Assembly (NCBI RefSeq): GCF_023015805.1
Contig: NZ_JALKBA010000003.1
Coordinates: 62,001 to 126,000 of the forward strand
From: Cellulophaga sp. F20128
GTDB lineage: Bacteria; Bacteroidota; Bacteroidia; Flavobacteriales; Flavobacteriaceae
Direction of reading: 5' to 3'
DNA: 64,000 bases
The position numbers and the translations under genes are program-made. The notes below the pieces were generated by a model. The model ran no database searches. It was given only the letters and a program-made list of their open reading frames with translations, and was not told the origin of the DNA. Positions 32,633 through 57,013 of this stretch are shown here, piece after piece (position 1 is the stretch's first letter; the number at the start of each line of letters is the position of its first letter).

Positions 32633-32908
32633 ATGAGTAATCAAGAAAAATATTTAGAAGAATTACTAGTAGAAGAGGAGGTTTCAAACAATAACGAAAT
32701 AGTATTGTTTAATGATGATGTAAATACTTTTGATCACGTAATTGATACTTTAATTGATGTTTGTGACCATACGCCAATACAGGCAGAACAATGTGCTTAT
32801 TTGGTACACCACAAAGGGAAATGTACTGTTAAAACTGGTGTTTACAAAGATTTAGAACCAAAATGCAGTAAATTATTACAAGCGGGACTTAGCGCAGAAA
32901 TAATTTAA
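32633..32908 (+). CDS. clpS: ATP-dependent Clp protease adaptor ClpS
   Basis: A 91-residue adaptor that delivers N-degron substrates to ClpAP/ClpCP. The core motif LFNDDVNTFDHVIDTL and later AYLVHHKGKCTVKTG are typical. Its stop codon shares the TTAA palindrome at 32905-32908 with the stop of the convergent gene. Confidence 0.93.
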   Translation: MSNQEKYLEELLVEEEVSNNNEIVLFNDDVNTFDHVIDTLIDVCDHTPIQAEQCAYLVHHKGKCTVKTGVYKDLEPKCSKLLQAGLSAEII

Positions 32909-34968
32909 TTCACAATAATTTCATCCACAAATACCCAGCTTTTACCTCCTGGATTTGGATGCCATGATGGATTTTTTAAAATACTTTGCACTTCTATTTT
33001 GATATACTTTGCCGTTGTTGGAGCAAAGGTAATATCATAAAATATTTGGCTGTCATTTGTTACTTTTTTTGGAATTTCTATTTTTTTGGTAGCGATTTGT
33101 TTAAAATCATTGGGAGTTTCAGAAGTCCAAATGGTATAGCCTACGGGATGAAAAACCCAACTAGACTGCCTCGATAAGGAGCCAATGGATACCGTAGATA
33201 TTTGGGTTGGTTGTTTTAATTCTAAGGTAGTTGTAAAACTAGACCCCTGAAAGCCCAACCAATGGCCATCTTGAAAATTTTCTGAACCGCGTTTTAAGTC
33301 AATTAAAGTTTTGGCGCCCTTGCCTGCGTAGCTTTTGTTAGGCTTTATGTCTAACCAAATAGAATCATAGGCGATCCCAGCCTTTTTAAATTTCATAGTA
33401 ACCGTTTCACTTTGTTTCCAGTCTTTTTTCTGAGCAAAAACTTTGAGCGTAGTAGATTCTTTAATGGTAAACGGACTGGTATATTTTCTAGAAGTGGTGT
33501 CAGGTTCTGAACCATCTGTTGTATAGAATAGATTGGCAGTTTTAAAAACATGTTCTATTTTAATTTCTTGTCCGTCATTAAAAAAATCGGTGGCATCAAC
33601 AAAATAGGGTTTGTTTAATAGGGCTTCATTAAAAAGAGAATCTGCCACATGTTTGGTTAATATATTTGGTCTTTCCTTTTTAAAAGCAAGCAATTCACTT
33701 TCGGTGACAGGGGTTTGGTATAAATATAGATTTTTCAAATGAGCAAGGTCCTTTACATAAGATAGGGAATTACCAGAAACATGGGTTCCATACAAATTTA
33801 AGGATTCAAGAAAACTCATTTTTTTTAACTTTTCAATGGTTTTATCGGAAATGGCGGTACGTTGTAATTGTAGTTTGGTTAGATTTTTAAAATTGGAAAG
33901 CGCACTTGCCATTTCATCGGTAAAATTGGAATAGGCCAGGTTTAATTCCACAATATTATTGGCGTATTTTTTTAGCTTATTAAAATCGCCTTTTGCAATG
34001 TGTTTCTTGTTTGATAAGTTAACAAGTAATAATTTTCTATTTTCTGCTATAGGGTATATACTATACCCATTTCTATTCATTTCTGTAACCCATTCAGAAG
34101 GCACATCATCCACAGTTTTGGTAATTATGCCCCTTGGTGAGGTGTCGGTTTCTAAGGACTTTAAAATAGCTGCAGTTTGCTCGTTCTTATCCAAGAAGCC
34201 AGCTGTACAATCGAAACAATTTTTATTTTCTAACCACCATTTCAACAGTACTATTTCTTCGTCGGTGAGTTGAACTTTTCCTTTTGGAGGCATATGCTCT
34301 TCATCGGTAACTGGCAGGTGTATTCTGGTGTAAAAAGAACTTGGATTGGAGTCAATAGAATCTAAAATACTGCCATTTTCTCCTCCTGCTACTATAGTTG
34401 TTGGGTCTGTAAGTAGCAACTCCCCTTTGGCTTTATTTGGGTTGTGGCAACTAACACATTTGTTATCTAAAATAGGTTGAATAATCTCTGCATATACCTT
34501 AGCCTTGTTCACATCTGTAATTACAATTTCCTTAATGGTGTTATCCTGGAATAAAAAATCTTCACCGTGGGTCATATTTCCACCCAAATGACCTGTTATA
34601 CCTAATAAAATTAGGGTAATAACGAACAATGGCATATAGGTTTTTTTACACCATACTACAGGACTTATTTTTAGGATATATAGTGCTACACTGCAAACGG
34701 TAAGGCCAACAGCCATCCATCGATGCCTAAATAAGGCAACTTCATCATAACTGCCATCTTCCCCCAATAACCAACCAGTACCTAAGGATAATAGGGCAGA
34801 AATTGCTGCGACGCCTATTGCTAGTTTTGTGATCTGAGTCGTCTCCTTAGACGTTCTATTTCGTAAATAGAGCTCTAGTATAAAAGCAAAAATTAAAATG
34901 CCAATTGGAAGATGAACAAATAATGGATGTAAATTACCAATTTGTATTGCTAGTGTGTATATCTGCAT
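32905..34968 (-). CDS. DUF2231 membrane cytochrome with LRR, chitobiase-C-like and discoidin-like modules
   Basis: A 687-residue mosaic. Residues ~10-130: four hydrophobic helices of the DUF2231 type with His pairs (LHPLFVHLP). Residues ~155-250: a PSCyt1-like cytochrome domain with the heme motif CVSCH (171-175) and a later MPPKG methionine candidate for axial ligation. Residues ~330-430: leucine-rich repeats (LTKLQLQRTAIS, LESLNLYGTHVS). Residues ~475-535: a chitobiase-C-like strand set (FYTTDGSEPDTTSRKY). Residues ~555-687: a discoidin-like domain ending WVFVDEIIVN. Last gene of the minus-strand five-gene operon; its ATG overlaps the preceding stop as TAATG. Likely moves electrons between the membrane and the extracytoplasmic PSD1 protein; this is inference. 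Confidence 0.7.
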   Translation of the reverse strand: MQIYTLAIQIGNLHPLFVHLPIGILIFAFILELYLRNRTSKETTQITKLAIGVAAISALLSLGTGWLLGEDGSYDEVALFRHRWMAVGLTVCSVALYILKISPVVWCKKTYMPLFVITLILLGITGHLGGNMTHGEDFLFQDNTIKEIVITDVNKAKVYAEIIQPILDNKCVSCHNPNKAKGELLLTDPTTIVAGGENGSILDSIDSNPSSFYTRIHLPVTDEEHMPPKGKVQLTDEEIVLLKWWLENKNCFDCTAGFLDKNEQTAAILKSLETDTSPRGIITKTVDDVPSEWVTEMNRNGYSIYPIAENRKLLLVNLSNKKHIAKGDFNKLKKYANNIVELNLAYSNFTDEMASALSNFKNLTKLQLQRTAISDKTIEKLKKMSFLESLNLYGTHVSGNSLSYVKDLAHLKNLYLYQTPVTESELLAFKKERPNILTKHVADSLFNEALLNKPYFVDATDFFNDGQEIKIEHVFKTANLFYTTDGSEPDTTSRKYTSPFTIKESTTLKVFAQKKDWKQSETVTMKFKKAGIAYDSIWLDIKPNKSYAGKGAKTLIDLKRGSENFQDGHWLGFQGSSFTTTLELKQPTQISTVSIGSLSRQSSWVFHPVGYTIWTSETPNDFKQIATKKIEIPKKVTNDSQIFYDITFAPTTAKYIKIEVQSILKNPSWHPNPGGKSWVFVDEIIVN

Positions 34969-35780
34969 TATTCTACAATGATTTCGTCAATAAATAACCA
35001 GGGCGTTTGGTTTGCTGCAGGATGCCAATCTGGAATTTTTTCTAAGTTATGTACTACAATTTTAAAGGATTCATAAGTTGCTTGTTCTATTGGAATCTCT
35101 ATAAAATTTAAGCTGGCATCCCCGGGAAATTTTTCAGCAGCTGTTTCATTCAAGTATTGACCTATTAATTTGGAACCAGAAAAAACAGCTATTTTCTGAG
35201 GTGAAAAAATCCAACTATTTTGGGAGGTCATTTGGTGAACAATTAATTTAGAGAGTTCTAGTTTTTTTGGTAAACTAAGGTTAATTACTACTTCATCTTT
35301 GTTAAAGCCAAGCCAACGATCACTATTTCTAAATTGTAAGGTACCACTTTTAGCATCTACTAAACTTTTTGTTCCATTGGCAGTATAGTTGTTCCCTGGG
35401 GAGGGAGCTATGGTAATAATGGCTTTAGAGATGTTGTGTTTCAGTTGTTTAGCATCAAACTCTACAATATCACTTGTTTTAAAATCCTCGTGAAATACCT
35501 TAGCTTTTACCTTGCAACTTTTTCGCACGTTAAACGGATGGGTGTATAATGGGGAGGCGGCAGTTACTTCACTACCATCAGTTGTATATCTTATTTCTGA
35601 ATTAGGATAGGCAAAAGTAAACGCCACGGTAGCTTTATTTTTAAAAAAGACAGAGTCTATTTTATAGGTCGGCGCTATTAATTGTATATCACCCGTATCA
35701 ACAAATGTTCCAATAGTTTCCTTTTGTCGTTGACAAGAAAAAATGAGAGCCAAAGAAAAAAAGCATAAGAGGTACTTCAT
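34968..35780 (-). CDS. Lipoprotein with chitobiase-C-like and discoidin-like modules
   Basis: A 270-residue lipoprotein (lipobox LIFSC, Cys16). Residues ~38-105 form the chitobiase-C/FN3-like module (IRYTTDGSEVTAASPLYTHPF); residues ~118-270 form the discoidin-like module with YTANGTKSLVDAKSG, WLGFNKDEVVI and the ending WLFIDEIIVE. It has no catalytic part and looks like a surface glycan-binding protein. Both modules recur in the protein encoded next to it and in the GH20 of the right arm. Ten bases separate it from the NHL gene. Confidence 0.65.
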   Translation of the reverse strand: MKYLLCFFSLALIFSCQRQKETIGTFVDTGDIQLIAPTYKIDSVFFKNKATVAFTFAYPNSEIRYTTDGSEVTAASPLYTHPFNVRKSCKVKAKVFHEDFKTSDIVEFDAKQLKHNISKAIITIAPSPGNNYTANGTKSLVDAKSGTLQFRNSDRWLGFNKDEVVINLSLPKKLELSKLIVHQMTSQNSWIFSPQKIAVFSGSKLIGQYLNETAAEKFPGDASLNFIEIPIEQATYESFKIVVHNLEKIPDWHPAANQTPWLFIDEIIVE

Positions 35781-35790
35781 CTTTTTAAAT

Positions 35791-36828
35791 TTAAACTCGA
35801 GTTAATTTTATAGGGTATGTTTTACCAGAATTCCATTGTGCAATATAAAGGTTGTCATCATCATCTATACATACATCATGTGGATTTTGGAAAATCTTTA
35901 AGGCCTGATGCATCGGTTGCAAAGTGCCGTCATCATTATAGGTTGGGGTGCTTCCGCCTGGTGCAGAAACTAATTTGTTTTCTCCATCAAGGATAGAAAT
36001 AAATCCAGTACCCATAGATCCATCTCCAGACCAAATTGTAGCAGTATAAATGTTTTCTTTGTGGATCACAGGCCGGCAAACATATGCGCCAGGTAGGTGA
36101 GTGGTACTTAAATACTTTCCGTCCATACTAAAACGTTTGAACTTATTTTGCATGCGATCTGTTATCAATAAGGTTGGATCTGCATTGTTACGAGTGTCTA
36201 TTACAATGCCATGTGCATTTCCAAATAAATGATCTTCTGTACCTCGACCTCCAAAAGTATTTAGAAGTTCTCCTTTTTCATTGTAATGCATAATGTACTG
36301 GGAACCATAGCCATCAGCAACATAAACATCGCCATTGGCAGCAATAGCGGTTTCTGTAGGGATGTATTTTGCAGGATCATCATATTTTCCTGATTCTTTC
36401 GGGAATTTAAATACTTGTACAACTTTACCATCAATCGTAGTTTTTATTACTTCATGACGTTTGTTGTCTGCTATATATAAAAAATCTTTTCCGTTTTCTA
36501 CATTTAATGTGAGCCCGTGTGCCCCAGGATATTCTGTTCCCCAAGCCTCTATTAGTTTCCCTGATTTATCGTAAACTATTACGTTGTTTTTGGTGTCATC
36601 GGTCAATAAAATAATACGTCCTTTAGAATCTTGTACCATTTCATGGCAATTGTTTACCGGATAAAAATTTGAATTTAAAGCGCCCCAGTTTAAATCCACT
36701 TTGTATTTGTGATTGTTATGACCAATAATAACATCCTTATATAATTCCATTGCGTTTAAAACAGGAGAACCAAATAATATTCCTGCAGTAGCAAGACTAG
36801 AATTTTGTATAAAATTTCTTCTCTTCAT
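35791..36828 (-). CDS. NHL-repeat beta-propeller protein with Tat-type signal
   Basis: A 345-residue extracytoplasmic protein. Its N-terminus MKRRNFIQNSSLATAGILFG looks like a twin-arginine signal (RRNF). The rest repeats NHL blades, for example GAHGLTLNVENGKDFLYIADNKRHEVI, DVYVADGYGSQYIMHY and NPHDVCIDDDDNLYIAQWNSG, giving a six-bladed propeller. Some NHL propellers are lyases (peptidyl-hydroxyglycine lyase, strictosidine-synthase-like), others bind ligands; the function here is open. A Tat signal would fit folding with a cofactor or metal before export. Middle gene of the operon, 18 bases from the DUF1501 gene. Confidence 0.75.
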   Translation of the reverse strand: MKRRNFIQNSSLATAGILFGSPVLNAMELYKDVIIGHNNHKYKVDLNWGALNSNFYPVNNCHEMVQDSKGRIILLTDDTKNNVIVYDKSGKLIEAWGTEYPGAHGLTLNVENGKDFLYIADNKRHEVIKTTIDGKVVQVFKFPKESGKYDDPAKYIPTETAIAANGDVYVADGYGSQYIMHYNEKGELLNTFGGRGTEDHLFGNAHGIVIDTRNNADPTLLITDRMQNKFKRFSMDGKYLSTTHLPGAYVCRPVIHKENIYTATIWSGDGSMGTGFISILDGENKLVSAPGGSTPTYNDDGTLQPMHQALKIFQNPHDVCIDDDDNLYIAQWNSGKTYPIKLTRV

Positions 36829-36846
36829 AATTAATTTTTTGGTTGG

Positions 36847-38340
36847 TTAGGCTAATATATTTTTTATAATATGTCCTTCTACGTCGGTAAGTCTAAATCT
36901 TCTACCTTGATATTTGTAGGTTAATTTTTTATGATCAATACCTAATAAATGGAGCATGGTTGCTTGAAAATCATGAACATGTACGGGATCTCGAACAATA
37001 TTGTATCCAAAGTCATCCGTTTCACCATGTACAATACCTGGCTTAATGCCACCCCCGGCCATCCACATAGAAAAACTTCTAGGATGGTGATCTCTTCCAT
37101 AGGTATCTGCGGTAAGAGGTCCTTGAGAATAATTAGTTCTACCAAATTCACCACCCCAAACAATAAGCGTGTCTTCTAGTAACCCTCGTTGTTTTAAGTC
37201 GGCTACCAATGCAGCAGAAGCCTGGTCTACATCTTTGGCTTGTTTTGAAAGTGCATTGGGTAAATCCGCATGTTGATCCCAACCCATATGATACAATTGA
37301 ATAAAACGAACGTCTTTTTCTGCTAATTTTCGAGCCAATAAACAATTGGCAGCATAGGTGCCTGGTATTTTGGCATCTGTACCATACATTTTATAGATAT
37401 AATCTGGTTCGTCATCTATGTTCATAACATTAGGAACAGAAGTCTGCATTCTATAGGCCATTTCGTATTGGGCAATTCTACTTTGAATCTCAGGATCCCC
37501 AAATTCTTGGTAATGCTTGTCATTTAATGCAGCTAACTGATCTAACATAGCCCGTTTGGTATCTTTTGTAGTCCCTTTTGGATCGTTTAAATACAAAACG
37601 GGGTCTTTTGCAGCCCTAAACTGAACACCCTGGTGTAATGAATGTAAAAATCCATTCCCCCAAAGTCTGGTATATAAGGGCTGACCTTGTGGCCTTCCTG
37701 TACCTCTAGATAGTAGTACCGTAAAGGCGGGTAGATTGTCATTTTCACTGCCAATACCATAACTTAACCAAGAACCTATACTAGGCCTTCCGGGTTGTTG
37801 AGATCCCGTTTGAAAAAAAGTAACTGCCGGATCATGATTAATGGCTTCGGTGTACATCGATTTAATAATGCAAATGTCGTCTACAATTTTTGAGGTATAG
37901 GGCAAAAGATCACTAATCCACGTTCCGTTTTTCCCATAGCGTTTAAAATCAAATTGAGAACCTACCAAAGGAAAGCTAGCTTGCCCAGAGGTCATCCCTG
38001 TTAGTCGTTGTCCGTTTCGTATTGATTCTGGTAATTCTTCACCCCTACGGACATTGAGCAAGGGTTTGTAGTCAAATAACTCTAATTGTGATGGTCCGCC
38101 ACTTTGGAATAAGTAGATGACCCTTTTTATTTTAGCCGGGTGATGTAGGCCGTTTAAAATACCTTTAGCTCCAGATAAATTGTTTGCTGGTGACAGCACT
38201 CCGTTTTCACTGGTATCAAATAAATTGCACCCCATAACTGAGGCTAGTGCAGCACCACCTACTCCTAATGCAGATTTGCCTAAAAATGATCTACGGTTTA
38301 GGATCAAAGAACTTTCTTCTAATATTTTTTTCTCGCTCAT
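36847..38340 (-). CDS. DUF1501 protein with Tat signal and lipobox-like Cys
   Basis: A 497-residue protein of the DUF1501 family, a distant alkaline-phosphatase/sulfatase superfamily branch common in Planctomycetes. The signal is NRRSFLGKSALGVGGAALASVMGC with twin Arg16-Arg17 and a lipobox-like Cys38. Later motifs are HPAKIKRVIYLFQSGGPSQLELFDYKP, LYHMGWDQHADLP, IVWGGEFGRTNYSQG, GRDHHPRSFSMWMAGGGIKPG and a C-terminal DFQATMLHLLGIDH; the Asp/His-rich ones are likely metal ligands. No substrate is established for the family. It almost abuts the PSD1 gene (2 bases), as in planctomycete operons. Confidence 0.85.
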   Translation of the reverse strand: MSEKKILEESSLILNRRSFLGKSALGVGGAALASVMGCNLFDTSENGVLSPANNLSGAKGILNGLHHPAKIKRVIYLFQSGGPSQLELFDYKPLLNVRRGEELPESIRNGQRLTGMTSGQASFPLVGSQFDFKRYGKNGTWISDLLPYTSKIVDDICIIKSMYTEAINHDPAVTFFQTGSQQPGRPSIGSWLSYGIGSENDNLPAFTVLLSRGTGRPQGQPLYTRLWGNGFLHSLHQGVQFRAAKDPVLYLNDPKGTTKDTKRAMLDQLAALNDKHYQEFGDPEIQSRIAQYEMAYRMQTSVPNVMNIDDEPDYIYKMYGTDAKIPGTYAANCLLARKLAEKDVRFIQLYHMGWDQHADLPNALSKQAKDVDQASAALVADLKQRGLLEDTLIVWGGEFGRTNYSQGPLTADTYGRDHHPRSFSMWMAGGGIKPGIVHGETDDFGYNIVRDPVHVHDFQATMLHLLGIDHKKLTYKYQGRRFRLTDVEGHIIKNILA

Positions 38341-38342
38341 AA

Positions 38343-40706
38343 CTATCCTTTGGTTATGGTTTCATCTAAATTTAAAATAGTGTGCGCCGTTAAGGCCAAG
38401 GCTGCTAAATCTTCAACGGCCATTGTTTTATCTAACTTTGTTGCGCCAATAGATAAGTAATCGGCAGCATTTACTTCTTCATTCTTTATTTTACTTAGCA
38501 TATTGGAATAATAGCCGTTAAGGGCTTCTAATTCTTCAGCGTCTGGTAGCCGGGAAGTGGCCGACTTAAAGATAGATTTTATTTGATTAGTTACATCTCC
38601 GCTACTGATCATTGCGTTACTAGCAAGAACCCTAGATGCCTCTACGAGTTGCGGATCGTTTAACAAAACCAAGGCTTGTAAAGGGGTATTTGTTTCTTGT
38701 CTTATCACAGAGCATAAATCTCTTGATGAAGCATCAAAAGTCATCATGCTTGGGGGTGGCACGGTTCTTTTCCAAAAAGTATACAAGCTTTTTCTGTACA
38801 AATCTTTTCCTTCACTTGGTATATAAGAAGCTGTACTCCCGCCGCCGCCGCCTGTAGTCTCTTTCCACAAGCCTTCAGGTTGATAAGGTTTTACACTTGG
38901 GCCACCAATTTCTTTGTTTAGTAGGCCACTGATAGCTAGTGCTTGATCACGTATCATTTCTGCAGATAAACGTATTCTAGGAGCACGAGCCAGTAATTTG
39001 TTCGTAGGGTCTTTCTCCAATGCCTCCTTCGTTATTATAGTCTGTTGTTGGTAGGTTGCAGATAGTGCTATATATTTTAGTATTTTTTTTGTATCCCAAC
39101 CCTCATCTCGTAGTTTAATAGCAAGGAAATCTAACAATTCGGGATGGGTAGGTAAAGCTCCTTGGTTTCCAAAATCAAAGGAGGAGGCAACCAAGCCAGT
39201 GCCAAACATACGTTGCCAAAACCGATTTACGGCTACTCTGGCGGTAAGTGGATTATCCGGATTAAATAACCATTTTGCTAATCCCAATCTATTTTTTGGA
39301 TAGGCTTCAGGAAAGGCTAAAATTGCTGTTGGTGTATTTGGAAATACTTCGGTAGTAGGTTGGTCATATGCACCTCGATCTAGTACATAGGTTTGTCTGG
39401 GTTTTTCCATTTCCTGCATAACCATAACGGGCAAGTTTTTCCGTGAAGATTTCTGAAGTTGTACAAAACTAAGTACATCTTCTTTTTCTTTTTCTGTGAT
39501 GTTGATAAACGGTTTGGGAATGGTATTTCTTCCGCCAGGTACTAAACCTTGTTCATCTATATTATTAAAAAAGCTATAAAATGAGAAGTGCTCTTCTTGA
39601 CTTATAGGATCGTATTTGTGGTCATGGCAACGAGCACATTCTAGAGTTAATCCTAAAAAAGCAGTGCCAAAGGTCTGAGTGCGATCTTCTACATATTCTA
39701 CTCTGTATTCCTCAGGTATTACTCCGCCTTCATAGGTGATTTTATGATTTCTATTAAAACCAGTAGCCAAAATTTGTTCTAAGGATGCATTGGGTAGTAA
39801 GTCGCCAGCCAATTGATCTGTAACAAATTTATCATAGGGCATGTTTTTGTTAAAGGCGTGTATAACCCAATCTCTCCATGGCCACATAATTCTTTCAAAA
39901 TCATCTTGATAGCCGTGGGTGTCTGCATATCGTGCAATATCCATCCATTCAGATGCCATATTTTCGGCATAATCTTGAGAGTCTAGAAGTTTGTCTATTA
40001 CTTTTTCATAGGCATTTTCTGAAGTATCGGCTAAAAAATCATCAATATCCGAAGGAGAAGGGGGTAAACCTGTTAAATCAAAAGTGACCCGTCGGATTAG
40101 TTTTTCCTTTGGTGCGGTTGCTGAGGGAGATAAGTTATTTTCTTTTATTTTTTTAAGGATAAAAGCATCAATTTCGTTATTTCCCCAGTTTTCATTGTTA
40201 TCAGGAATAGCTTGTTTTTGTGGAGGTGTAAATGCCCAATGTGTTTTGTATTCTGCCCCTTGTTCTATCCACTTTTTTAAGATTTCCTTTTCGTAATTCG
40301 TTAAATCTAAATTAGATTCAGGAGGTGGCATCACAACATTGGCATCCGTAGAAAAAATACGATTAACAAGTTCACTTTTTTCTACATTTCCTGGGACAAT
40401 AGCATAGTGATCTTTTTCTTTGCCTAAAAGCTTGTAGGCATCTTCTGGGGTTACCATTGAAAAATCACCTTCAATCGCATTTTTGTCGGGACCATGGCAT
40501 TTAAAACAGCGATCAGATATAATTGGTTTTACATGAAACGTAAAGTCTATTTTATCTGGAATTTTTGCCATATCCTTTGTAGACATAGCAATTTCTGAAT
40601 AGTTTGCTTCATTTTTACAACTAAAAGCGCCAATCACAATGAGCAGTATTAGAGTAATTTTTTTGATGAAACGTATGCTTAAAATCTGCCATTCTATTTT
40701 TTTCAT
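38343..40706 (-). CDS. PSCyt1-DUF1549-DUF1553 (PSD1) cytochrome lipoprotein
   Basis: A 787-residue lipoprotein (Cys30, IGAFSC). Order: PSCyt1 heme domain (CFKCH, 67-71, with VMPPP later), DUF1549 (about 176-385, FDLTGLPPSPSDIDDFL) holding a second heme-type motif CARCH (357-361) before DHKYDPIS, and DUF1553 (about 490-780, NRFWQRMFGTGLV, RDQALAISGLLN, QTNTPLQALVLLNDPQLVEA). The family is abundant in Planctomycetes and scattered in Bacteroidota; its reaction is unknown. The ATG at 40706 was chosen because a signal peptide starts just after it; a frame to 40823 adds unlikely sequence. First gene of the left operon. Confidence 0.85.
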   Translation of the reverse strand: MKKIEWQILSIRFIKKITLILLIVIGAFSCKNEANYSEIAMSTKDMAKIPDKIDFTFHVKPIISDRCFKCHGPDKNAIEGDFSMVTPEDAYKLLGKEKDHYAIVPGNVEKSELVNRIFSTDANVVMPPPESNLDLTNYEKEILKKWIEQGAEYKTHWAFTPPQKQAIPDNNENWGNNEIDAFILKKIKENNLSPSATAPKEKLIRRVTFDLTGLPPSPSDIDDFLADTSENAYEKVIDKLLDSQDYAENMASEWMDIARYADTHGYQDDFERIMWPWRDWVIHAFNKNMPYDKFVTDQLAGDLLPNASLEQILATGFNRNHKITYEGGVIPEEYRVEYVEDRTQTFGTAFLGLTLECARCHDHKYDPISQEEHFSFYSFFNNIDEQGLVPGGRNTIPKPFINITEKEKEDVLSFVQLQKSSRKNLPVMVMQEMEKPRQTYVLDRGAYDQPTTEVFPNTPTAILAFPEAYPKNRLGLAKWLFNPDNPLTARVAVNRFWQRMFGTGLVASSFDFGNQGALPTHPELLDFLAIKLRDEGWDTKKILKYIALSATYQQQTIITKEALEKDPTNKLLARAPRIRLSAEMIRDQALAISGLLNKEIGGPSVKPYQPEGLWKETTGGGGGSTASYIPSEGKDLYRKSLYTFWKRTVPPPSMMTFDASSRDLCSVIRQETNTPLQALVLLNDPQLVEASRVLASNAMISSGDVTNQIKSIFKSATSRLPDAEELEALNGYYSNMLSKIKNEEVNAADYLSIGATKLDKTMAVEDLAALALTAHTILNLDETITKG

Positions 40707-40779
40707 AGCACTTGAAATAAAAAAGGTGTTAGAAACGAGTATTAAATATGACCTATATTTTATAGGCAAGCAATAATTA

Positions 40780-40791
40780 TCGACCAATAAC
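40780..40791 (-). promoter_or_regulatory. Shared 12-base motif upstream of the PSD1 operon
   Basis: GTTATTGGTCGA on the minus strand, 73-85 bases before the PSD1 start codon. It matches GTTRTTRGTCKA found at three other sites in the locus. It sits just after a short repeat (TATTGGTTATTGG). Candidate binding site of the adjacent LytTR regulator; inference only. Confidence 0.4.
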
Positions 40792-40860: not shown

Positions 40861-41565
40861 TCAAGATTCTCCGAGCAAGGTCTGTTTCACATCATTTAAA
40901 TAACTTCTGCCAATGGTGTATCGAATTCCTCCAATTTCTAAGCTATTCCCTTCTATTGCAGTAACCTTGGCAATAGATACAGTATACGACCTGTGTATTC
41001 TTGAAAACTTATCACTTGGTAATTCATCAGTGAAACTACTCAATGTTCGGTGAATAATATATTTTTCTGAGGTAGTTTTTATGCGGATGTAATCTTTTAA
41101 GCTTTCAATGACCAAAATATCATCCAAAAATATTTTCTGTAATTTCTTTTTGTCAATTTTTATAAAAATACTTGGATTTTCGGTTGTAGATAGATTGGAG
41201 CTGTTTTGTTTTAATTCAATAATGCGCTGAACTGCCTGTAAAAATCTTGGGAAAGGAATGGGTTTTACCAAATAGTCTATGGCTTGTAGTTCATAACTTG
41301 TTAGCGCATATTCTTCATGGGCCGTGGTCATAACAACCATTGGTTTTATTTGTAAATTTTTCAAAAAATCCAAACCGTCCAAAATAGGCATATTAATATC
41401 TAAAAAGATAATGTCAATTTTGTTGTTTTGAACGTAGGTAGCCGCTGCTACCGCATTAGAAAATGTTTCGATTAAATCTAATTCCTTTATTTGAGAAACA
41501 TAATTTTTTAATACATTAATCGCAAGTGGTTCATCATCAATAATTATGGTTCTTAATTTGGTCAT
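40861..41565 (-). CDS. LytTR-family response regulator
   Basis: A 234-residue two-component regulator. The receiver domain has the acidic pocket Asp10-Asp11, the phosphate-accepting Asp56 (IIFLDINMP), Thr in VMTTAHEE, and Lys in YLVKPIPFP. The C-terminal LytTR DNA-binding domain covers about 135-232 (FIKIDKKKLQKIFLDDILVIES, FSRIHRSYTVSI, IGRSYLNDV). The start overlaps the kinase stop by 4 bases. It lies between the two arms and is the only regulator visible, so it is the natural candidate controller of both. Confidence 0.9.
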   Translation of the reverse strand: MTKLRTIIIDDEPLAINVLKNYVSQIKELDLIETFSNAVAAATYVQNNKIDIIFLDINMPILDGLDFLKNLQIKPMVVMTTAHEEYALTSYELQAIDYLVKPIPFPRFLQAVQRIIELKQNSSNLSTTENPSIFIKIDKKKLQKIFLDDILVIESLKDYIRIKTTSEKYIIHRTLSSFTDELPSDKFSRIHRSYTVSIAKVTAIEGNSLEIGGIRYTIGRSYLNDVKQTLLGES

Positions 41566-42680
41566 ACTCTAAGTTTTAGAATTACATTAAACATGTTTTC
41601 TTTTTCAAAAATGGTTAGGTTGAAGTCTTCTTTCTTATACCCTAATTCTAGGCGTTTTTTTACATTGCTAAGACCAATACCGCCGCTTGTGGTTGGAAGT
41701 GTTTTTACGGGGGATTTATTCGGAATGGTATTGGAAACTTTAAAATGAAGAAAATCTCCACTTACTTTTATATCTATATTAATAGTCATATCTCCAATGT
41801 TTTTACTGGCCCCATGTTTAAAACAATTTTCAATTAGGGGAATTAGGAGCATGGGTGAAATGGTTTTATTTTCCAAATCTCCAGAAATGGAAATGTTTAT
41901 ATCTAAAGAATCATCAAAACGGAGTCGTTCTAGGTCTAGATAGTTATGAATACAGTCTATTTCGCTTTTTAAATCCTGTTTGTTCTTTTTGGTGGCATAG
42001 AGTAAATAGCGCATTAACTCAGAGAGTTTTAAGATAACTTCTGGTGCTTTGTTCGATTTTTCTAAAGTTAAGGAGTAAATATTGTTCAAGGTGTTAAAAA
42101 AGAAATGCGGGGATATTTGTGAGCGTAAAAACCGCAGTTCAGTACTCAGTTGTCTTTTTTCTAATTCGTGTAATTTACTGTGTTCTTTGAGCCAGTCTAT
42201 GGTAAGTTTTATGGCAGCGACAAAAGATGAAACATATAATTCGCCTACCATTGTAGTTATTGCATAGTTAAGTGTTAATCCTTGTAATTCCTCTGGCCCT
42301 TCTGGCCATACATCTGGACCAATTAAAATATAGGTTGCAAAGTATTTTACCAATAACATAACAAACAAAGTGAGTACTACAAAAAAAGCATACCTATAGT
42401 ATTTTTTTTGAAATACAAATTTGGGCATGAGGTAGTACACATTAAAATACGCGATAGACATGTGAATGGGGAAGCCAATTAAGTTCATTTTTAAAGACAG
42501 GGCATAGTCTTGGTGAATGTTGCTATATCGTAGCATATTGAATATAAAATAGATAAGCCAAAAAATGATATGATGCTTATAATTTACATCAAAACTTTTT
42601 GAAGAATTACCCTTGATAAAAGATCCAATATTGTTATTTGTACTCATTGCTATAAATTCGTTATTTCTTGTCTGTTTCAT
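41562..42680 (-). CDS. LytS/YehU-type sensor histidine kinase
   Basis: A 372-residue membrane kinase. Four membrane helices lie in residues ~37-158, then a coiled segment and the His_kinase domain with the phosphorylated His192 in FLRSQISPHFFFNTLNNI, and an HATPase-like end (PMLLIPLIENCFKHG, GGIGLSNVKKRLEL). No periplasmic sensor of HTCS type is present. A second ATG 11 codons in is possible. It is divergent from the CBM9-like gene. Confidence 0.9.
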   Translation of the reverse strand: MKQTRNNEFIAMSTNNNIGSFIKGNSSKSFDVNYKHHIIFWLIYFIFNMLRYSNIHQDYALSLKMNLIGFPIHMSIAYFNVYYLMPKFVFQKKYYRYAFFVVLTLFVMLLVKYFATYILIGPDVWPEGPEELQGLTLNYAITTMVGELYVSSFVAAIKLTIDWLKEHSKLHELEKRQLSTELRFLRSQISPHFFFNTLNNIYSLTLEKSNKAPEVILKLSELMRYLLYATKKNKQDLKSEIDCIHNYLDLERLRFDDSLDINISISGDLENKTISPMLLIPLIENCFKHGASKNIGDMTINIDIKVSGDFLHFKVSNTIPNKSPVKTLPTTSGGIGLSNVKKRLELGYKKEDFNLTIFEKENMFNVILKLRV

Positions 42681-42704: not shown

Positions 42705-42728
42705 GTTATTGGTCTAAATTTATTTTTG
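42705..42728 (+). promoter_or_regulatory. Shared 12-base motif plus -7 box in the kinase/CBM9 divergent spacer
   Basis: GTTATTGGTCTA at 42705-42716 matches GTTRTTRGTCKA. Four bases later comes TATTTTTG (42721-42728), a perfect TAnnTTTG, with no proper -33 TTG. This is what an activator-dependent promoter of the right operon could look like, with a leader of about 160 bases. The motif is also only 25 bases from the kinase start codon, so autoregulation is possible. Confidence 0.45.
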
Positions 42729-42896: not shown

Positions 42897-43973
42897 ATGA
42901 ATAAAAATAACCACTTAAATCAAAAAATTAATAACCTACTTCTTTGTGTTTTATGTTTCAGTAGTTTTTCTTTGTTTTCACAAGAAATTCCAAAGCAATA
43001 TATTGCACATTATGTAGAAGATAGTTTAAGAATAGATGGTAAGGATGATGATAAATCTTGGAATGGCGTTCAGTGGACAGATTATTTTATAGATATTGAA
43101 GGAGAGAAAATACCCAAGTACAAGACACAGGTAAAAATGGTTTGGGATGCCAAGTATTTGTATTTTTTCGCCAAGCTAAAAGAGCCACATGTTTGGGGAG
43201 ATATTACCAAGCGTGATGCTGTAATATTTCATAATAACGATTTTGAAATCTTTGTTGACCCTACGGGAGATACTCATAATTATTTAGAATTTGAGATAAA
43301 TGCCTTAAATACGGTGTGGGATTTATTGCTGACTAAGCCATACGGGCAAGGCGGTGTTGTTGTGAATAATTGGGATATTAAAGGGTTAAAAACTGCAGTT
43401 GACGTAAAAGGCACCTTGAATAATAGCGCTGATATTGATACCTATTGGACCATTGAAATTGCTATTCCATGGACAGCTTTACTAGAAACAAGTAATGTAA
43501 GAAGAATACCTGCAAATAAATTTTGGCGTGTTAATTTTTCAAGAGTCCATTGGGATCATACCATAGAAAATGGCGAATATCAGAAAAAGAAGGACGATCA
43601 AGGTAAGAAGCTACCAGAGTACAATTGGGTGTGGTCCCCGCAAGGAGTAATTAGTATGCATAAACCTAATAAGTGGGGATATGTTTATTTTTCCGATAAG
43701 AAAGTTGATGATGGTTTTGAGTGGGAAATTCCCAAAGATGAGTATATTAAGTGGTATTTGTATGATTTGTATTACAGTACTCGACATCAAATAAGTAAAA
43801 GTTCTACGAGTAGTATGGTATTAGAATCAAAAGAAGTTTTAGGTAAATTAATTGTGCCAAAAGTTGAGAAACATAGATCGGGTTGGAATATTTGGGCCAT
43901 AAGTCCATTTACAAACAAAACATTAATAATTAAGGAAGATGGAAAATTTAGTAGTAATGAAGAAAAAAAGTAA
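42897..43973 (+). CDS. CBM9-like (DOMON-fold) carbohydrate-binding protein
   Basis: A 358-residue secreted protein, signal peptide ending near FSQ-E (residue 29). The body resembles the carbohydrate-binding family 9-like domain: DSLRIDGKDDDKSWNGVQWTDYF, VKMVWDAKYLYFFAKLKEPHVWGDITKRDAVIFHNNDFEIFVDPTGD and YWTIEIAIPWTAL. Such proteins bind sugars, sometimes heme, at the surface. The stop overlaps the next gene by 17 bases. It starts the plus-strand operon. Confidence 0.85.
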   Translation: MNKNNHLNQKINNLLLCVLCFSSFSLFSQEIPKQYIAHYVEDSLRIDGKDDDKSWNGVQWTDYFIDIEGEKIPKYKTQVKMVWDAKYLYFFAKLKEPHVWGDITKRDAVIFHNNDFEIFVDPTGDTHNYLEFEINALNTVWDLLLTKPYGQGGVVVNNWDIKGLKTAVDVKGTLNNSADIDTYWTIEIAIPWTALLETSNVRRIPANKFWRVNFSRVHWDHTIENGEYQKKKDDQGKKLPEYNWVWSPQGVISMHKPNKWGYVYFSDKKVDDGFEWEIPKDEYIKWYLYDLYYSTRHQISKSSTSSMVLESKEVLGKLIVPKVEKHRSGWNIWAISPFTNKTLIIKEDGKFSSNEEKK

Positions 43974-45078
43974 GCTATTTATTTGTAGTATTTTAATAGG
44001 ATTTACAATGGTTTCTTGTGATTTTAAGGAATCTACTAAAGAAGAAAATTTAGTTGAAGACATTGTAAAAGATGAATTTCAATTTTGGACCTGGACTAGT
44101 GCTAATGCTAAAAAGTCAGATGAAGCTTACCAACAAGAATTTGCAAAATACAAGGCCAATGGTATTAATGATGTCCTAATTAATACGGGTACAGATGCGG
44201 AACTTTTAGCACGTATAACACCAATAGCAAAGAAAGAAGGTTTAGAAGTTCATGCATGGATGTTTACAATTAATAGACCTGGTGATAAAATTGCCAATGA
44301 ACATCCAGAGTGGTTTGCTGTTAGTCGTGATGGAAAATCTTGTTATGATGAGCCTCCATATGTAGGATACTACAAATGGTTGTGTCCAACACGGGCAGAA
44401 TCAAAGGCCCATATTTTAAGTTTGGTAGAAGGTTTGGCTAAGGTAGAAGGGGTTGCAAGTGTGCATTTAGATTATATTAGATATTCTGATATCTATTTAC
44501 CTATAGGATTATTGCCTAAATATAATTTGAAACAAGAAACTGAATTGCCAGAATTTGATTTCTGTTATTGTGATGTTTGTTTGGAAACCTTCGAAAAAGA
44601 ACATCATAAAAATCCAAAAGATTTCGAAAACCCAGCTATTGATATGGAGTGGAAGAATTTTCGATTAAATAAGGTAAAGGATATTGTAGATGCTGCCTAT
44701 GAAATAGCACACAAAAATAATAAAATTTTAACAGCCGCTGTATTTCCATATCCAGAAATGGCAGACCATATGGTGCGTCAACGTTGGGATAAATGGAATA
44801 TTGATAAAGTATTACCCATGATATATCACGGTTTTTATAATGAAGAAATTGATTGGATAGGATATGCAACCGGTCAGGGTGTTAAAGATTTAAAAAACAC
44901 AAATACAGAATTGCATACTGGTATTTACATCCCAGGGATGTCTGCAGAAGAATTGGAAGAGGCAATTGTATTAGCTAAAGAAAATGGGGCTAAGGGTGTT
45001 TCTTTCTTTGACGGGGGAGCACTTAAAGAGGAGCACTTAGCTGTGATTAAAAAGCTTAAAAATAAACTAACTTTATAA
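43957..45078 (+). CDS. GHL10-type putative glycoside hydrolase lipoprotein
   Basis: A 373-residue lipoprotein (lipobox TMVSC, Cys21) with a TIM-barrel-like body. Motifs seen: FQFWTWTSANAKK, EGLEVHAWMFTINRPGD, ASVHLDYIRYSDIYLP (an Asp on the strand end), LTAAVFPYP, VLPMIYHGFYN and KGVSFFDGGAL; they resemble the family 10-like (GHL10/DUF187) hydrolases. A CxxC pair (CYCDVC) near residue 205 may bind metal or form a disulfide. The ATG at 43957 is preferred because it starts the signal peptide; an in-frame ATG at 43939 is inside the previous gene. The gap to GH20 is 1 base. Exact activity unknown. Confidence 0.75.
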   Translation: MKKKSKLFICSILIGFTMVSCDFKESTKEENLVEDIVKDEFQFWTWTSANAKKSDEAYQQEFAKYKANGINDVLINTGTDAELLARITPIAKKEGLEVHAWMFTINRPGDKIANEHPEWFAVSRDGKSCYDEPPYVGYYKWLCPTRAESKAHILSLVEGLAKVEGVASVHLDYIRYSDIYLPIGLLPKYNLKQETELPEFDFCYCDVCLETFEKEHHKNPKDFENPAIDMEWKNFRLNKVKDIVDAAYEIAHKNNKILTAAVFPYPEMADHMVRQRWDKWNIDKVLPMIYHGFYNEEIDWIGYATGQGVKDLKNTNTELHTGIYIPGMSAEELEEAIVLAKENGAKGVSFFDGGALKEEHLAVIKKLKNKLTL

Positions 45079-45079
45079 G

Positions 45080-47404
45080 ATGAAGAATTTCATAAATTTA
45101 ATAGTACTTGTTGCCCTAGTTCTGTTGGCTAGTTGCGATCAGAAAACAAAGAAAATTTTTACGGAAGCAGATCTTTCTGTTATTCCAAAGCCAGTTGCTA
45201 TGAAACTTACGGATGGTACTTTTCAATTTACGGGCAAAACAAAATTGGTAGCACATTCAGATCAACAGCAAACAGCTCAGTCTTTTTCTGAGGATTTCGC
45301 TAAAGTTTCTGGTTTTACAATGGAAGTGTCGGATAAATTGCCGGCAAAAAATTTCCTGCAATTTGTTGTAGATGATACGCTTGAGGACGAAGGGTATACC
45401 CTTGTGGTAAAGGGGTCTGAAATTATTATTTCAGCAAAGGGAAGAAACGGTTTTGTTTACGCTTTGGAAACTATTAAACAATTATTGCCCGCTACTTTTG
45501 AAGGCAGTGTTCTAGTTGAAGATGAAGAGTGGGTCATACCCAACGTTGAGGTTTCGGATGCCCCTCGTTTTAAGTGGCGTGGTTTAATGTTAGATGTATC
45601 CCGTCATTTTTTTGATACAGCATACATAAAACGTACTATAGATCGTATGGCGATGCTTAAGATGAATACGTTACATTGGCATTTGGTTGATGATCAAGGA
45701 TGGCGTATTGAAATTAAAAAATATCCAAAACTTACAGAGGTAGGTGGGTTTAGAGTAGATCAAGAGGATAAAAGCTGGAATACAAGGCCTAATGCAGCCC
45801 TTGGTACGGAAGCTACCTATGGTGGGTTTTACACTCAGGAAGAAATAAAGGAGGTTGTAGCCTATGCTACAGCAAGAGGAATTACAGTAGTTCCTGAAAT
45901 AGAAATGCCAGCGCATGTAAGTAGTGCAGTTGCTGCCTATCCCATACTTTCATGCCTTGAAAATGAAATTATGGTGCCTTCAGGAGGTGTATGGCCAATT
46001 ACAGATATTTATTGCCCAGGCAAGGAAACTACCTTTACTTTTTTAGAAGATGTTCTAACAGAAGTTATGGCATTGTTTCCGTCAAAATATATCCACGTAG
46101 GTGGTGATGAGGCAACCAAAACCAATTGGAAAACTTGTGATCACTGTCAGGCGCGAATACAGTCAGAAAACCTGGAAAGTGTAGAGGAATTGCAGAGTTA
46201 TTTTATAAAAAGAATGGAACGTTTTATAAGTTCCAACGACCGAATTTTAATAGGCTGGGATGAGATCTTGGAAGGAGGCTTAGCTCCGGGGGCAACAGTA
46301 ATGAGTTGGCGTGGTGTAAAAGGTGGCTTGGAGGCTTCTGCCGAAGGCCATGATGTGGTGATGACACCTGGGTCTCATTGTTATTTTGATCATTATCAAG
46401 GCGATCAAGATCAAGAGCCTTTGGCTTGGGGTGGGTATTTGCCTTTAAGTAAAGTGTATCAATTTGATCCGGTCGTTGAAGGTATGACGCCTGCACAAGA
46501 AAAACACGTTTTAGGCGGACAAGCAAATCTGTGGGCAGAATACATACCAACCACACAACAGTCTGAATATATGATTTTTCCAAGGTTAGCAGCCATGTCT
46601 GAAGCTGTTTGGAGTCCCAAAGAAAGTAAAGATTGGACCGATTTTTCAAAGCGGGTTAAAGGTTTGTTTAAACGGTATGATGTTATGGGTATCAATTATG
46701 CTAAAAGTGCCTATCAAATTACAGCAAACACAGAAATCGATTTGGCAAAAGGAAGTTTACTGGTTACCTTAAAAAATGAGTTTCCTGGTTCTGATATACG
46801 GTATTCTTTGGATGGTAGCGATCTAGATACAACTTCTATAAAATATACAGCGCCTTTTCAAATTTCTTCATCTACCAGCATTAAAGCAGCTATGTTCGAG
46901 GATAATAAGCTGTTGGGGCCTGTTTTAGCAAAGTACATTAATTATCATAAGGCAGCTGGTAAAAAAGTAAGCTATAAGGAACAGTATCACAAAAGTTACC
47001 AAGGAGCAAAAGAAGTAGGTATGGTCAACGTTCTGCGAGGGTCTAAACACTTTCATGACGGACAATGGCAAGCTTGGTTAGGGAATAATATGGAGGTAGT
47101 TATAGATATGGAAAATGATACAGAAATATCTAAAATTTCCGTAGGTGCAATGGAAGCGCAAGGCTCTGGAATATATTTCCCAACCAAAGTTGAGGCATTT
47201 GTTTCTAAAGATGGTAAGAAGTATACGAGTGTAGGGGCAATTACTAGAGCCTACGTATCAAATGGCGATACAGAACTTAAGGATTTTGAAATTTCTTTTG
47301 AGGCAAGCCAAAACCGTTATGTTAAAGTAATAGCAACTAATTTGGGAAGTGCACCAAATGGAGGAGGATCATGGCTGTTTGTGGATGAGATTGTAGTAGA
47401 ATAG
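45080..47404 (+). CDS. GH20 beta-N-acetylhexosaminidase lipoprotein
   Basis: A 774-residue lipoprotein (Cys19, LLASC). Order: the GH20b-type N-terminal domain (about 30-150), the catalytic barrel with LHWHLVDDQGWRIEIKKYP and the catalytic Asp343-Glu344 in HVGGDEATKTNW, a chitobiase-C-like module (about 550-620, IRYSLDGSDLDTTSIKYTAPF) and a discoidin-like module ending WLFVDEIVVE. The enzyme removes terminal GlcNAc or GalNAc by substrate-assisted catalysis. Its two C-terminal modules match those of the left arm. Confidence 0.93.
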   Translation: MKNFINLIVLVALVLLASCDQKTKKIFTEADLSVIPKPVAMKLTDGTFQFTGKTKLVAHSDQQQTAQSFSEDFAKVSGFTMEVSDKLPAKNFLQFVVDDTLEDEGYTLVVKGSEIIISAKGRNGFVYALETIKQLLPATFEGSVLVEDEEWVIPNVEVSDAPRFKWRGLMLDVSRHFFDTAYIKRTIDRMAMLKMNTLHWHLVDDQGWRIEIKKYPKLTEVGGFRVDQEDKSWNTRPNAALGTEATYGGFYTQEEIKEVVAYATARGITVVPEIEMPAHVSSAVAAYPILSCLENEIMVPSGGVWPITDIYCPGKETTFTFLEDVLTEVMALFPSKYIHVGGDEATKTNWKTCDHCQARIQSENLESVEELQSYFIKRMERFISSNDRILIGWDEILEGGLAPGATVMSWRGVKGGLEASAEGHDVVMTPGSHCYFDHYQGDQDQEPLAWGGYLPLSKVYQFDPVVEGMTPAQEKHVLGGQANLWAEYIPTTQQSEYMIFPRLAAMSEAVWSPKESKDWTDFSKRVKGLFKRYDVMGINYAKSAYQITANTEIDLAKGSLLVTLKNEFPGSDIRYSLDGSDLDTTSIKYTAPFQISSSTSIKAAMFEDNKLLGPVLAKYINYHKAAGKKVSYKEQYHKSYQGAKEVGMVNVLRGSKHFHDGQWQAWLGNNMEVVIDMENDTEISKISVGAMEAQGSGIYFPTKVEAFVSKDGKKYTSVGAITRAYVSNGDTELKDFEISFEASQNRYVKVIATNLGSAPNGGGSWLFVDEIVVE

Positions 47405-47429
47405 AAGAACATTATAAAAATGTACAGTT

Positions 47430-49637: not shown

Positions 49638-49667
49638 GGCAAATACCAACGAAAACAATTGAATCTT

Positions 49668-51914: not shown

Positions 51915-51926
51915 ATTAAATATAGA

Positions 51927-53432: not shown

Positions 53433-53489
53433 AAATAAATTGACTTTTATTTAAAGTCTCTTATATATTTTAACAAATAATTTTACCTA

Positions 53490-53520
53490 AGGGGCTAATT
53501 TTTATTAGTCCCTTTTTTTT
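53490..53520 (+). terminator. Intrinsic terminator after the GH29 gene
   Basis: A 10-bp stem AGGGGCTAAT / ATTAGTCCCT with one G-U pair, a 4-base loop and an 8-base T run. It would limit read-through from the hydrolase genes into susC1. Confidence 0.85.
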
Positions 53521-53542
53521 GCGTGAAACAATGTTTATAAAT

Positions 53543-53580
53543 GTTATATAGCTTTTCTCTAAAGTTGTTAGTCGAATTAC
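53543..53580 (+). promoter_or_regulatory. Regulatory element in the susC1 leader
   Basis: Contains the shared motif GTTGTTAGTCGA (53564-53575) and, exactly 21 bases upstream, GTTATATAG (53543-53551). Two GTT boxes two helical turns apart recall the direct repeats bound by LytTR proteins. The 17 bases GTTGTTAGTCGAATTAC are identical in the susC2 leader. The element lies about 105-145 bases before the susC1 start. Confidence 0.45.
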
Positions 53581-56995: not shown

Positions 56996-57013
56996 AAAAT
57001 AAAAATATATATT

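Follow-up and report, generated by a model that had tools for sequence, protein, structure and literature searches.

We analysed a 64,000-nucleotide stretch of the genome of Cellulophaga sp. F20128 (contig NZ_JALKBA010000003.1, positions 62,001 to 126,000 of the forward strand; hereafter referred to as the window), in which five tightly packed genes encode a PSD1 protein, a DUF1501 protein, an NHL propeller protein, a CHB_HEX_C lipoprotein and a DUF2231 cytochrome. The reading that we favour, tentatively and at somewhat below an even chance, is that these five genes constitute an extracytoplasmic redox module and belong to the same regulon as the GH20/GH92/GH29 glycan locus next to them (GH, glycoside hydrolase family). 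A candidate regulatory site common to both operons, a shared protein module and conserved synteny suggest that the five-gene operon belongs to the glycan-locus regulon, and the encoded proteins suggest that the bacterium may include an oxidation when it degrades the sugar chain targeted by the neighbouring locus.

A packed operon with heme motifs and twin-arginine signals

The original prediction, made from the letters of the window, described five tightly packed genes at 32905-40706, and the open reading frames (ORFs), all on the minus strand, and the Pfam matches bear out both the named domains and the spacing (gaps of 2, 18 and 10 bases plus a single TAATG overlap). The PSD1 gene starts with an ATG at 40706, and an alternative, longer ORF with a TTG start extends to 40823. 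PSD1 and DUF1501 are direct neighbours on the same strand, separated by 2 bases; they are paired likewise in all eight such operons of the own genome and in most of the related loci read. The operon encodes three CxxCH motifs, two in PSD1 (CFKCH and CARCH), as had been predicted, and one in the cytochrome (CVSCH).

The homologue counts for PSD1, DUF1501, NHL and cytochrome proteins come from our own profiles; they include matches that exceed a set score and omit fragmentary or divergent members. Exactly two CxxCH motifs were present in 124 of 126 PSD1 homologues, the remaining two having one and three. The twin-arginine translocation (Tat) signal attributed to DUF1501 was recovered as a twin-arginine-type motif in 110/114 homologues. 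The NHL protein also starts with a twin-arginine sequence (RR within the first 40 residues in 32/34 homologues), which brings the number of operon proteins with a heme motif or a Tat signal to four, one more than originally counted.

A candidate promoter site is common to the operon and the divergent glycan operon

A candidate regulatory site precedes both the PSD1 gene and the divergent operon that begins with CBM9-GHL10-GH20 (Table 1). When up to one mismatch was allowed, the pattern GTTATTGGTCNANNNTTATT had three matches in the 4.17 Mb genome, against one for the reversed control. The only two perfect matches genome-wide were the promoter of the five-gene operon and that of the glycan operon divergent from it; the third, with one mismatch, lay at G000:C40:12610-12629 (G000 is the own genome; G, C and L numbers are our handles for genomes, contigs and loci). 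Because this pattern came from both sites, the PSD1 site alone was used as a fairer query. With up to 3 mismatches in 20 positions, it matched three places in the genome, namely itself, contig C11 (G000:C11:59720-59739, 3 mismatches) and the glycan promoter, and the reversed control gave two. In a two-part form with the upstream half-site TTWARC, the same two places were again the only perfect matches, and up to two mismatches gave 22 matches against 16 in the reversed control. The copy at 42705-42725 also adjoins the start of the divergent histidine kinase (HK) gene; we infer that the obvious candidate for a factor binding the site is the LytTR response regulator, with this kinase.

The site is retained in relatives. 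All ten promoters of five genomes (two in each) matched with at most one mismatch, at distances of about 59-65 bases to PSD1 (about 59-61 in the four congeners) and 171-174 bases to CBM9. Other matches at this threshold in 3.47 Mb of scanned loci, from which the small overlapping loci L001-L010 and L019-L027 as well as L108-L133 were omitted, were only one pair of these places, present a second time in L202. A Maribacter metagenome-assembled genome (MAG; L028) has a two-mismatch copy 112 bases before PSD1, and no site with up to two mismatches was found in the operon-free loci of the congeners G004 and G017 or in the GH run of G023, described below. A separate consensus promoter scan did no better than chance, with 41 matches against an expected 40.3.

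The gene order and its glycan neighbourhood recur in relatives

The window-type five-gene order occurs also in four congeneric genomes and in a Saprospiraceae MAG (L030), and with this recurrence the arrangement is more than chance. Among the best 80 PSD1 loci of named genomes, the Maribacter MAG has the window-type order, cut by a contig end and with NHL as two ORFs (72% PSD1 identity), and other Bacteroidota have the order without the lipoprotein or without the NHL gene. In a midpoint-rooted FastTree phylogeny of 120 PSD1 proteins, the window protein, its four congeneric orthologs and those of L028, L029, L030, L134 and L163 formed one clade with a support of 0.996. The distribution is patchy, a PSCyt2 match being present in 19 of the 60 genomes searched, the own genome included; in the congener G003, the window-type operon accounts for the sole PSCyt2 match.

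The succession of prmA, the five genes, the LytTR/HK pair and CBM9-GHL10-GH20 is kept in 5/5 genus genomes that have the window-type operon, always with the five genes divergent from CBM9-GHL10-GH20 and the regulator pair between them. GHL10 was found in 7 of the 18 genus genomes searched, including all five with the operon. In G023, which belongs to another genus, PSD1, DUF1501 and the cytochrome, without NHL and lipoprotein, lie inside a one-strand GH run (L134) that reads GH18-GHL10-GH92-GH20-[PSD1-DUF1501-cytochrome]-GH92-GH123-GH29-epimerase-GH92, where GH18, GHL10 and GH123 were assigned by Pfam, the remaining GH genes by our own profiles and the epimerase by reading. L134, L239 and L240 (G023:C33) display a very large, mostly one-strand cluster of GH18, GH20, GH29, GH92, GH123, GHL10 and DUF4838 genes around the redox operon. 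At L040, CBM9-GHL10 is divergent from and adjoins the operon. L040 (CBM9 and GHL10) and L091 (CBM9 and DUF4838) lie outside the window clade, and the CBM9 partnership thus recurs beside PSD1 operons.

Markers of polysaccharide utilization are enriched near related operons

We compared 40 of the 41 PSCyt2 places in relatives (G012:C190 was omitted) with 40 random regions of the same genomes, using regions of 20 kb (one operon region had 16 kb and one 19 kb) and marker profiles built from the own genome, the window and the fetched loci; other GH families were not counted. At least one of SusD, SusC, GH20, GH92, GH29 and sulfatase was present in 24/40 operon regions and 6/40 random regions (P 3e-5). 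With orthologs collapsed, markers were present in 9/17 groups against 3/37 random regions (P 6e-4). The random regions L190, L202 and L203 hold PSD1 and were kept in the per-locus test but omitted from the ortholog-group test, and L194, which overlaps the L134 GH cluster, was kept in the per-locus test. SusD (13 against 0) and SusC (11 against 1) showed the difference among the 40 operon and 40 random regions. Sulfatase alone was not enriched (5/40 against 4/40), and the numbers for GH20, GH29 and GH92 alone (6 against 2 of 40) were not significantly different. DUF1080, AP_endonuc_2 or GMC markers were found in 5/40 against 0/40 regions, and in 2/17 ortholog groups against 0/37 (P 0.095). Markers of polysaccharide utilization loci (PULs) are enriched near PSD1 operons, not universal. 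The comparison proposed with the original prediction, whether the operon stands equally often beside unrelated genes, was in this way run within the family, and the glycan link withstood it.

The PSD1 and DUF1501 proteins

The PSD1 gene product matched the Pfam families PSD1 (5.7e-100), PSCyt2 (2.6e-88) and PSCyt1 (6.9e-17), all above cut-off. CFKCH lies in the PSCyt1 part and CARCH in the PSCyt2 part, and PSD1 is predicted to be a di-heme core protein. A loose lipobox-like motif was seen in 51/126 homologues, and the window PSD1 is possibly a lipoprotein. Its AlphaFold2 (AF2) model (pLDDT 87.9, pTM 0.87) had no fold match in the PDB by Foldseek (best E 1.8). By sequence profile, clear solved relatives were obtained for the PSCyt1 domain only, namely the Fe(II) oxidase FoxE (4.5e-10) and hydrazine synthase alpha (6.6e-6). 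The window PSD1 had no DUF1800 match at a Pfam E of 0.01; an HH comparison of PSD1 and DUF1800 gave a local match only (34 columns, P 0.0023), and in L017 the match had an E of 0.015. This hints at a distant homology that could make PSD1 a DUF1800 relative with hemes.

The DUF1501 protein (Pfam 4.5e-155; AF2 model pLDDT 81.6) had 181 Foldseek matches at E <= 0.001, including LtaS, sulfatases and alkaline phosphatase at a probability of 1.00 and an E of 2.9e-7, with TM-scores of only about 0.3-0.4. An HH alignment with the sulfatases of the fetched loci extended over 113 columns (P 3.4e-8) and ended short of the nucleophile helix. Residues H169, D355, H357, E398 and H418 were invariant in 114/114 homologues. 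In the sulfatase/alkaline-phosphatase superfamily, a D-H/D-N pair provides metal ligands. This pair aligned with E398-F399, the PDB profile matches themselves being weak (E 0.1-0.9), and a motif reading suggests that H169 may lie near the nucleophile position. With E398-F399 in place of D-H/D-N, an ordinary hydrolytic site in DUF1501 is therefore doubtful. DUF1501 is probably the catalytic partner of PSD1.

The propeller, the lipoprotein and the membrane cytochrome

The NHL protein matched NHL (7.1e-10) and DUF5128 (5.1e-7), and its H62, H104, H206 and H317 were invariant in 34/34 homologues. Propellers of the peptidylglycine amidating lyase type have a three-histidine metal site; the match of the NHL protein to such a propeller (3fvz) was weak (E 0.0012), and TRIM/Brat-type NHL propellers matched better.

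The lipoprotein contains CHB_HEX_C_1 (3.8e-14) and an F5/8-like module of the carbohydrate-binding type. Its only PDB match at E <= 0.1 was the tail of the GH20 beta-hexosaminidase 6q63 (2.6e-14), which we take to be a complex-N-glycan enzyme of Bacteroides. The cytochrome combines DUF2231 (5.2e-7), PSCyt1 (1.1e-8) and CHB_HEX_C_1 (1.7e-15); F5_F8_type_C (4.9e-6; 27.1 bits) fell below its cut-off of 28.2, and a leucine-rich repeat (LRR)-like stretch was weak and likewise below cut-off. Homology at 25-32% identity, with E down to 7e-30, joins the lipoprotein, the tail of the cytochrome and the C-terminal regions of the GH20 and DUF4838 proteins (29-30% between the lipoprotein and the GH20 and cytochrome tails). 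In a set of 62 PSD1 genes that have a cytochrome gene close by, PSD1 carried a LamG insert in 21 cases and the cytochrome a tail in 24, and the two never occurred together. Because the cases fall in clades, this is a pattern rather than 62 independent events.

The DUF2231 cytochromes have one CxxCH and a distal-type M226 in 61/61 homologues, and H14, H19, H82, H127 and H134 of the membrane domain were equally invariant (61/61). Since the c-heme must be outside, a four-helix topology would bring the five histidines close to the outer surface, where a heme b or a metal site would need them. The own genome has two c-heme assembly matches.

Copies of the module in the own genome and in related loci

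The own genome has 9 PSCyt2 and 10 DUF1501 genes, which include eight PSD1-DUF1501 operons, the window operon among them; the notion that the operon is unique to the window locus was accordingly rejected. The remaining two DUF1501 genes adjoin DUF1800 genes. The DUF2231 cytochrome is encoded by a gene of its own in seven of the eight operons. In the remaining one (L017:6846-9683), Pfam identifies DUF2231, PSCyt1, PSCyt2 and PSD1 as one protein followed by DUF1501, a fusion that ties the membrane cytochrome to PSD1. The same fusion followed by DUF1501 was seen with our own profiles in L172 and L173. The NHL slot is occupied in paralogous operons by another propeller (L016) or by a sugar-isomerase barrel of the AP_endonuc_2 type (L015), a swap that would be predicted for an accessory protein matched to its substrate. 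The barrel lies between DUF1501 and the cytochrome in L015:11010-14730 and also in L156, L168, L169 and L171, and the gene after the cytochrome in L015 reads as a DASS-type transporter.

A paralogous operon of the LamG type is followed by a GH29 alpha-L-fucosidase gene in 7/7 congeneric loci (L146, L158-L162 and L164), at 10, 22 and 25 bases in the three loci read, with Pfam assignments for one; SusC and SusD come next on the same strand in 6/7. GH29 stands beside the window operon, one congeneric ortholog set, L134, L036 and L090. Fucose alone as the common substrate was rejected, other operons adjoining a KduI-like gene, sugar-isomerase barrels or housekeeping genes. In L155:11748-14401, L031 and L035, genes that read as short-chain dehydrogenase/reductase (SDR)-like and FAA hydrolase-like directly follow the cytochrome gene, and in L155 a gene read as KduI-like comes after them; this further paralogue clade may serve uronate breakdown. 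Genes read as GMC-type oxidoreductases lie near the PSD1 operons of L050, L051 and L083, and some other PSD1 operons adjoin DUF1080 or AP_endonuc_2 genes; with such neighbours, PSD1 operons possibly touch a 3-keto-glycoside pathway.

The neighbouring glycan locus

The positions of the operon, the candidate sites and the adjoining locus are listed in Table 1. A second, similar SusC/SusD pair extends from 59131 to the window end. The locus has the combination of a SusC/SusD pair and carbohydrate-active enzymes by which PULs are recognised.

Table 1. Features of the five-gene operon and the adjoining glycan locus in the window
Feature	Position	Strand	Basis or pattern
DUF2231 cytochrome	32905-34968	minus	ORF list and Pfam
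CHB_HEX_C lipoprotein	34968-35780	minus	ORF list and Pfam
NHL propeller protein	35791-36828	minus	ORF list and Pfam
DUF1501 protein	36847-38340	minus	ORF list and Pfam
PSD1 protein	38343-40706	minus	ORF list and Pfam
Candidate regulatory site, 64 bases before PSD1 ATG	40771-40791	minus	GTTATTGGTC[GT]A...TTATT[GT]
LytTR response regulator	40861-41565	minus	Pfam; retained in 4 congeners
Histidine kinase, LytTR partner	41562-42680	minus	Pfam; synteny
Same candidate site, 171 bases before CBM9-GHL10-GH20 operon	42705-42725	plus	GTTATTGGTC[GT]A...TTATT[GT]
CBM9-like protein, first gene of divergent glycan operon	42897-43973	plus	Pfam; synteny
GHL10 putative glycoside hydrolase	43939-45078	plus	Pfam; genome distribution
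GH20 beta-hexosaminidase, C-tail with shared module	45080-47404	plus	Pfam; homology
GH92 alpha-mannosidase-type enzyme	47430-49637	plus	Pfam
DUF4838 protein, C-tail with shared module	49659-51914	plus	Pfam; homology
GH29 alpha-L-fucosidase	51927-53432	plus	Pfam
SusC/SusD-type pair	53687-58756	plus	Pfam

Discussion

The original prediction had built the operon into a glycan-utilization locus, and the promoter site, the shared module, the synteny in five genomes, the embedding in a GH run and the enrichment of PUL markers agree on this membership. Of the extracytoplasmic redox or metal step that it had suggested, the redox version is plausible in view of the invariant heme motifs and the membrane histidine cluster. 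In the mechanism that we propose, the lipoprotein and the cytochrome tail would retain a liberated oligosaccharide or sugar at the membrane, and the PSD1/DUF1501 pair would oxidise it, with the metal-type site of DUF1501 binding or activating the substrate and the di-heme PSD1 accepting the electrons. These could then travel via heme c of the cytochrome and its membrane site with the many histidines, and reach the quinone pool or a terminal oxidase. The NHL propeller, or the propeller or AP_endonuc_2 barrel that replaces it, might process or position the oxidised product.

Several observations weigh against this proposal. The strongest ground for caution on the redox chemistry is the partnership of DUF1501 with DUF1800, which adjoins it on the same strand in 26/26 DUF1800 loci of 31 genomes (own included). 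The own genome's two DUF1800 proteins have no CxxCH motif, and because DUF1501 also pairs with such proteins, it may have a core function other than redox. Outside the PSCyt1 domain, PSD1 lacks a clear relative of solved structure. Membership of the regulon rests on sequence, and the oxidation chemistry is our proposal. The five orthologous loci are not independent, because their PSD1 genes form one clade, and the congeners G004 and G017 have GHL10, CBM9, GH92 and a related kinase without PSCyt2. For 17 of the 62 PSD1 genes, our profiles detected no LamG insert and no cytochrome with a tail. SusD lies within about 20 kb of only 3/8 own operons, and the neighbours of two of the eight (L011 and L012) read as housekeeping genes, far from recognised glycan genes. 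In other Bacteroidota, where 97 of 212 neighbouring proteins were Pfam-scanned (11 of 23 loci, L030-L040, NHL genes omitted), no glycoside hydrolase was among the 25 commonest of 165 Pfam families. In freshwater Verrucomicrobia, the density of PSCyt genes is reported to correlate negatively with that of GH genes (r = -0.62; PMC5615132). The glycan link stands for the window operon, and it fails as a general rule when the neighbours in the own genome and in other Bacteroidota are considered.

Other explanations have to be weighed against an oxidation module of the glycan regulon. DUF1501 might be a working hydrolase or transferase acting on a sulfated or phosphorylated glycan, the heme proteins only giving or taking electrons for its maturation or for local redox balance. 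The Foldseek matches at probability 1.00 (with their TM-scores of about 0.3-0.4), the 113-column alignment with sulfatases and the sulfatase-type genes that adjoin some related operons (L135, L136 and L140) speak for this. We consider it unlikely in view of the invariant E398-F399 aligned with the D-H/D-N pair (the PDB profile matches being weak), the invariant H169, which by motif reading may lie near the nucleophile position, and the absence of sulfatase enrichment near the operons. It is similarly improbable that the shared site merely autoregulates the HK/LytTR pair, with the operon being a generic stress or envelope module that landed alongside by chance. The glycan-side site does lie just upstream of the divergent kinase gene, L011 and L012 are distant from recognised glycan genes, and a proposed extracytoplasmic function (ECF) regulator of a PSD1 gene in Rhodopirellula rises under stress (PMC2754498). 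Against it stand the second copy of the site at a near-fixed distance before PSD1 in five genomes, the module that the operon shares with the GH20 and DUF4838 enzymes and, in another genus, its position inside a run of GH genes.

Slightly less probable still is that the module gives electrons to another extracellular oxidase rather than drawing them from sugar. The Cellvibrio protein Cbp2D, implicated in polysaccharide degradation, offers a precedent in its c-type cytochrome domain CjX183, which reduces lytic polysaccharide monooxygenases (LPMOs; PMC8981238), and the heme protein of the window operon carries carbohydrate-binding-type modules. CjX183 donates electrons to a copper enzyme, whereas LPMO_10 had no match in the own genome (other LPMO families were not searched), and Pfam identified no oxidase among the eight proteins scanned from 42897 to 58756. 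The most improbable of these appears to be a module that is merely co-regulated with the glycan genes and moves electrons for metal ions, in redox reactions of iron or copper or in the capture of metal bound to glycans. The profile matches of the PSCyt1 part of PSD1 to FoxE and hydrazine synthase alpha favour it, but the FoxE match covers the small heme domain only, no metal-transport domain was found by Pfam in the five proteins, and the binding modules are of sugar-binding types.

The window glycan locus, which presumably resembles a PUL of the complex N-glycan type, is like Bacteroidota PULs in having SusC/D pairs, GH20, GH92, GH29 and a regulator together, with GH18 and GH123 in addition in G023. 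Textbook PULs are not known to carry heme proteins, whereas the multi-heme operon at the window locus carries the same candidate promoter site. The periplasmic lactose 3-dehydrogenase LacABC contains a GMC flavoprotein subunit, whereas Pfam found no GMC domain among the five operon proteins, and the proposed oxidising pair here is PSD1/DUF1501. LacABC with DUF1080 represents membrane-bound sugar oxidation in the periplasm, after which a hydrolase acts on the oxidised sugar (PMC9007349); some related PSD1 operons, for comparison, adjoin DUF1080 or AP_endonuc_2 genes. The DUF1800-DUF1501 operons are alike in giving DUF1501 a fixed neighbour; they have been linked to bacterial chitin synthases and stand in some proteobacteria beside a chitin synthase and a sugar epimerase gene (PMC5122149). 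In the window operon, PSD1 replaces DUF1800, and with it comes the CxxCH that the own DUF1800 proteins lack.

The PSCyt/PSD1 genes of Planctomycetes and Verrucomicrobia share the PSCyt1, PSCyt2 and PSD1 domain set with the window gene. They have been linked to redox, and Rhodopirellula baltica has the PSD1 and PSCyt2 domains 41 times each (PMC2754498). He et al. (PMC5615132) noted that PSCyt2 genes, of unknown function, usually lie beside a gene family that is also unknown and that some carry carbohydrate-binding modules, and linked the Verrucomicrobia PSCyt/PSD1 genes to carbohydrate breakdown through such fused modules and sulfatase neighbours. The description of the operon as an undescribed system was therefore too strong, these genes having been named and redox and carbohydrate roles suspected before. 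The window operon differs from those of Planctomycetes and Verrucomicrobia in ending with a dedicated DUF2231-PSCyt1-LRR membrane cytochrome, in carrying the binding module on the cytochrome and the lipoprotein, and in having a promoter site common with a PUL. In the parts of the literature covered on DUF1501, DUF1549/DUF1553, PSCyt, DUF1800 and DUF2231, we found no function assigned to PSD1 or DUF1501, and the parts covered of PMC9723794 and PMC13274419 hold nothing on the operon's protein families. As far as these searches show, what is new is a Bacteroidota operon that has its own membrane cytochrome and shares its promoter site with a glycan operon. The same applies to the LamG-or-tail pattern, to the altered site in the sulfatase fold of DUF1501 and to the failure of PSD1 to match any PDB fold.

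A bolder proposal, possible in our view but held with less confidence than not, is that PSD1-DUF1501 with the DUF2231 cytochrome represents a new class of carbohydrate oxidoreductase coupled to the respiratory chain, in which a di-heme protein of a new fold works with a repurposed sulfatase-fold partner. Bacteroidota and, in dozens of copies, Planctomycetes would plug it into single glycan loci, varying the binding module and the accessory enzyme for each glycan. Few unknowns recur as often in Planctomycetes as the PSCyt/PSD1 genes, which occur also in Verrucomicrobia and Bacteroidota, and the literature covered contained no report of a substrate. The window locus ties one such operon to a small enzyme set, GH20, GHL10, GH92 and GH29. 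Because the shared promoter site ties the operon to defined enzymes, the list of inducers and substrates becomes short, and a function that has long been open can be tested. Should the redox step prove real, models of glycan breakdown by hydrolysis alone overlook an energy-yielding oxidation, and glycan breakdown would include an oxidative, energy-conserving step outside the cytoplasm.

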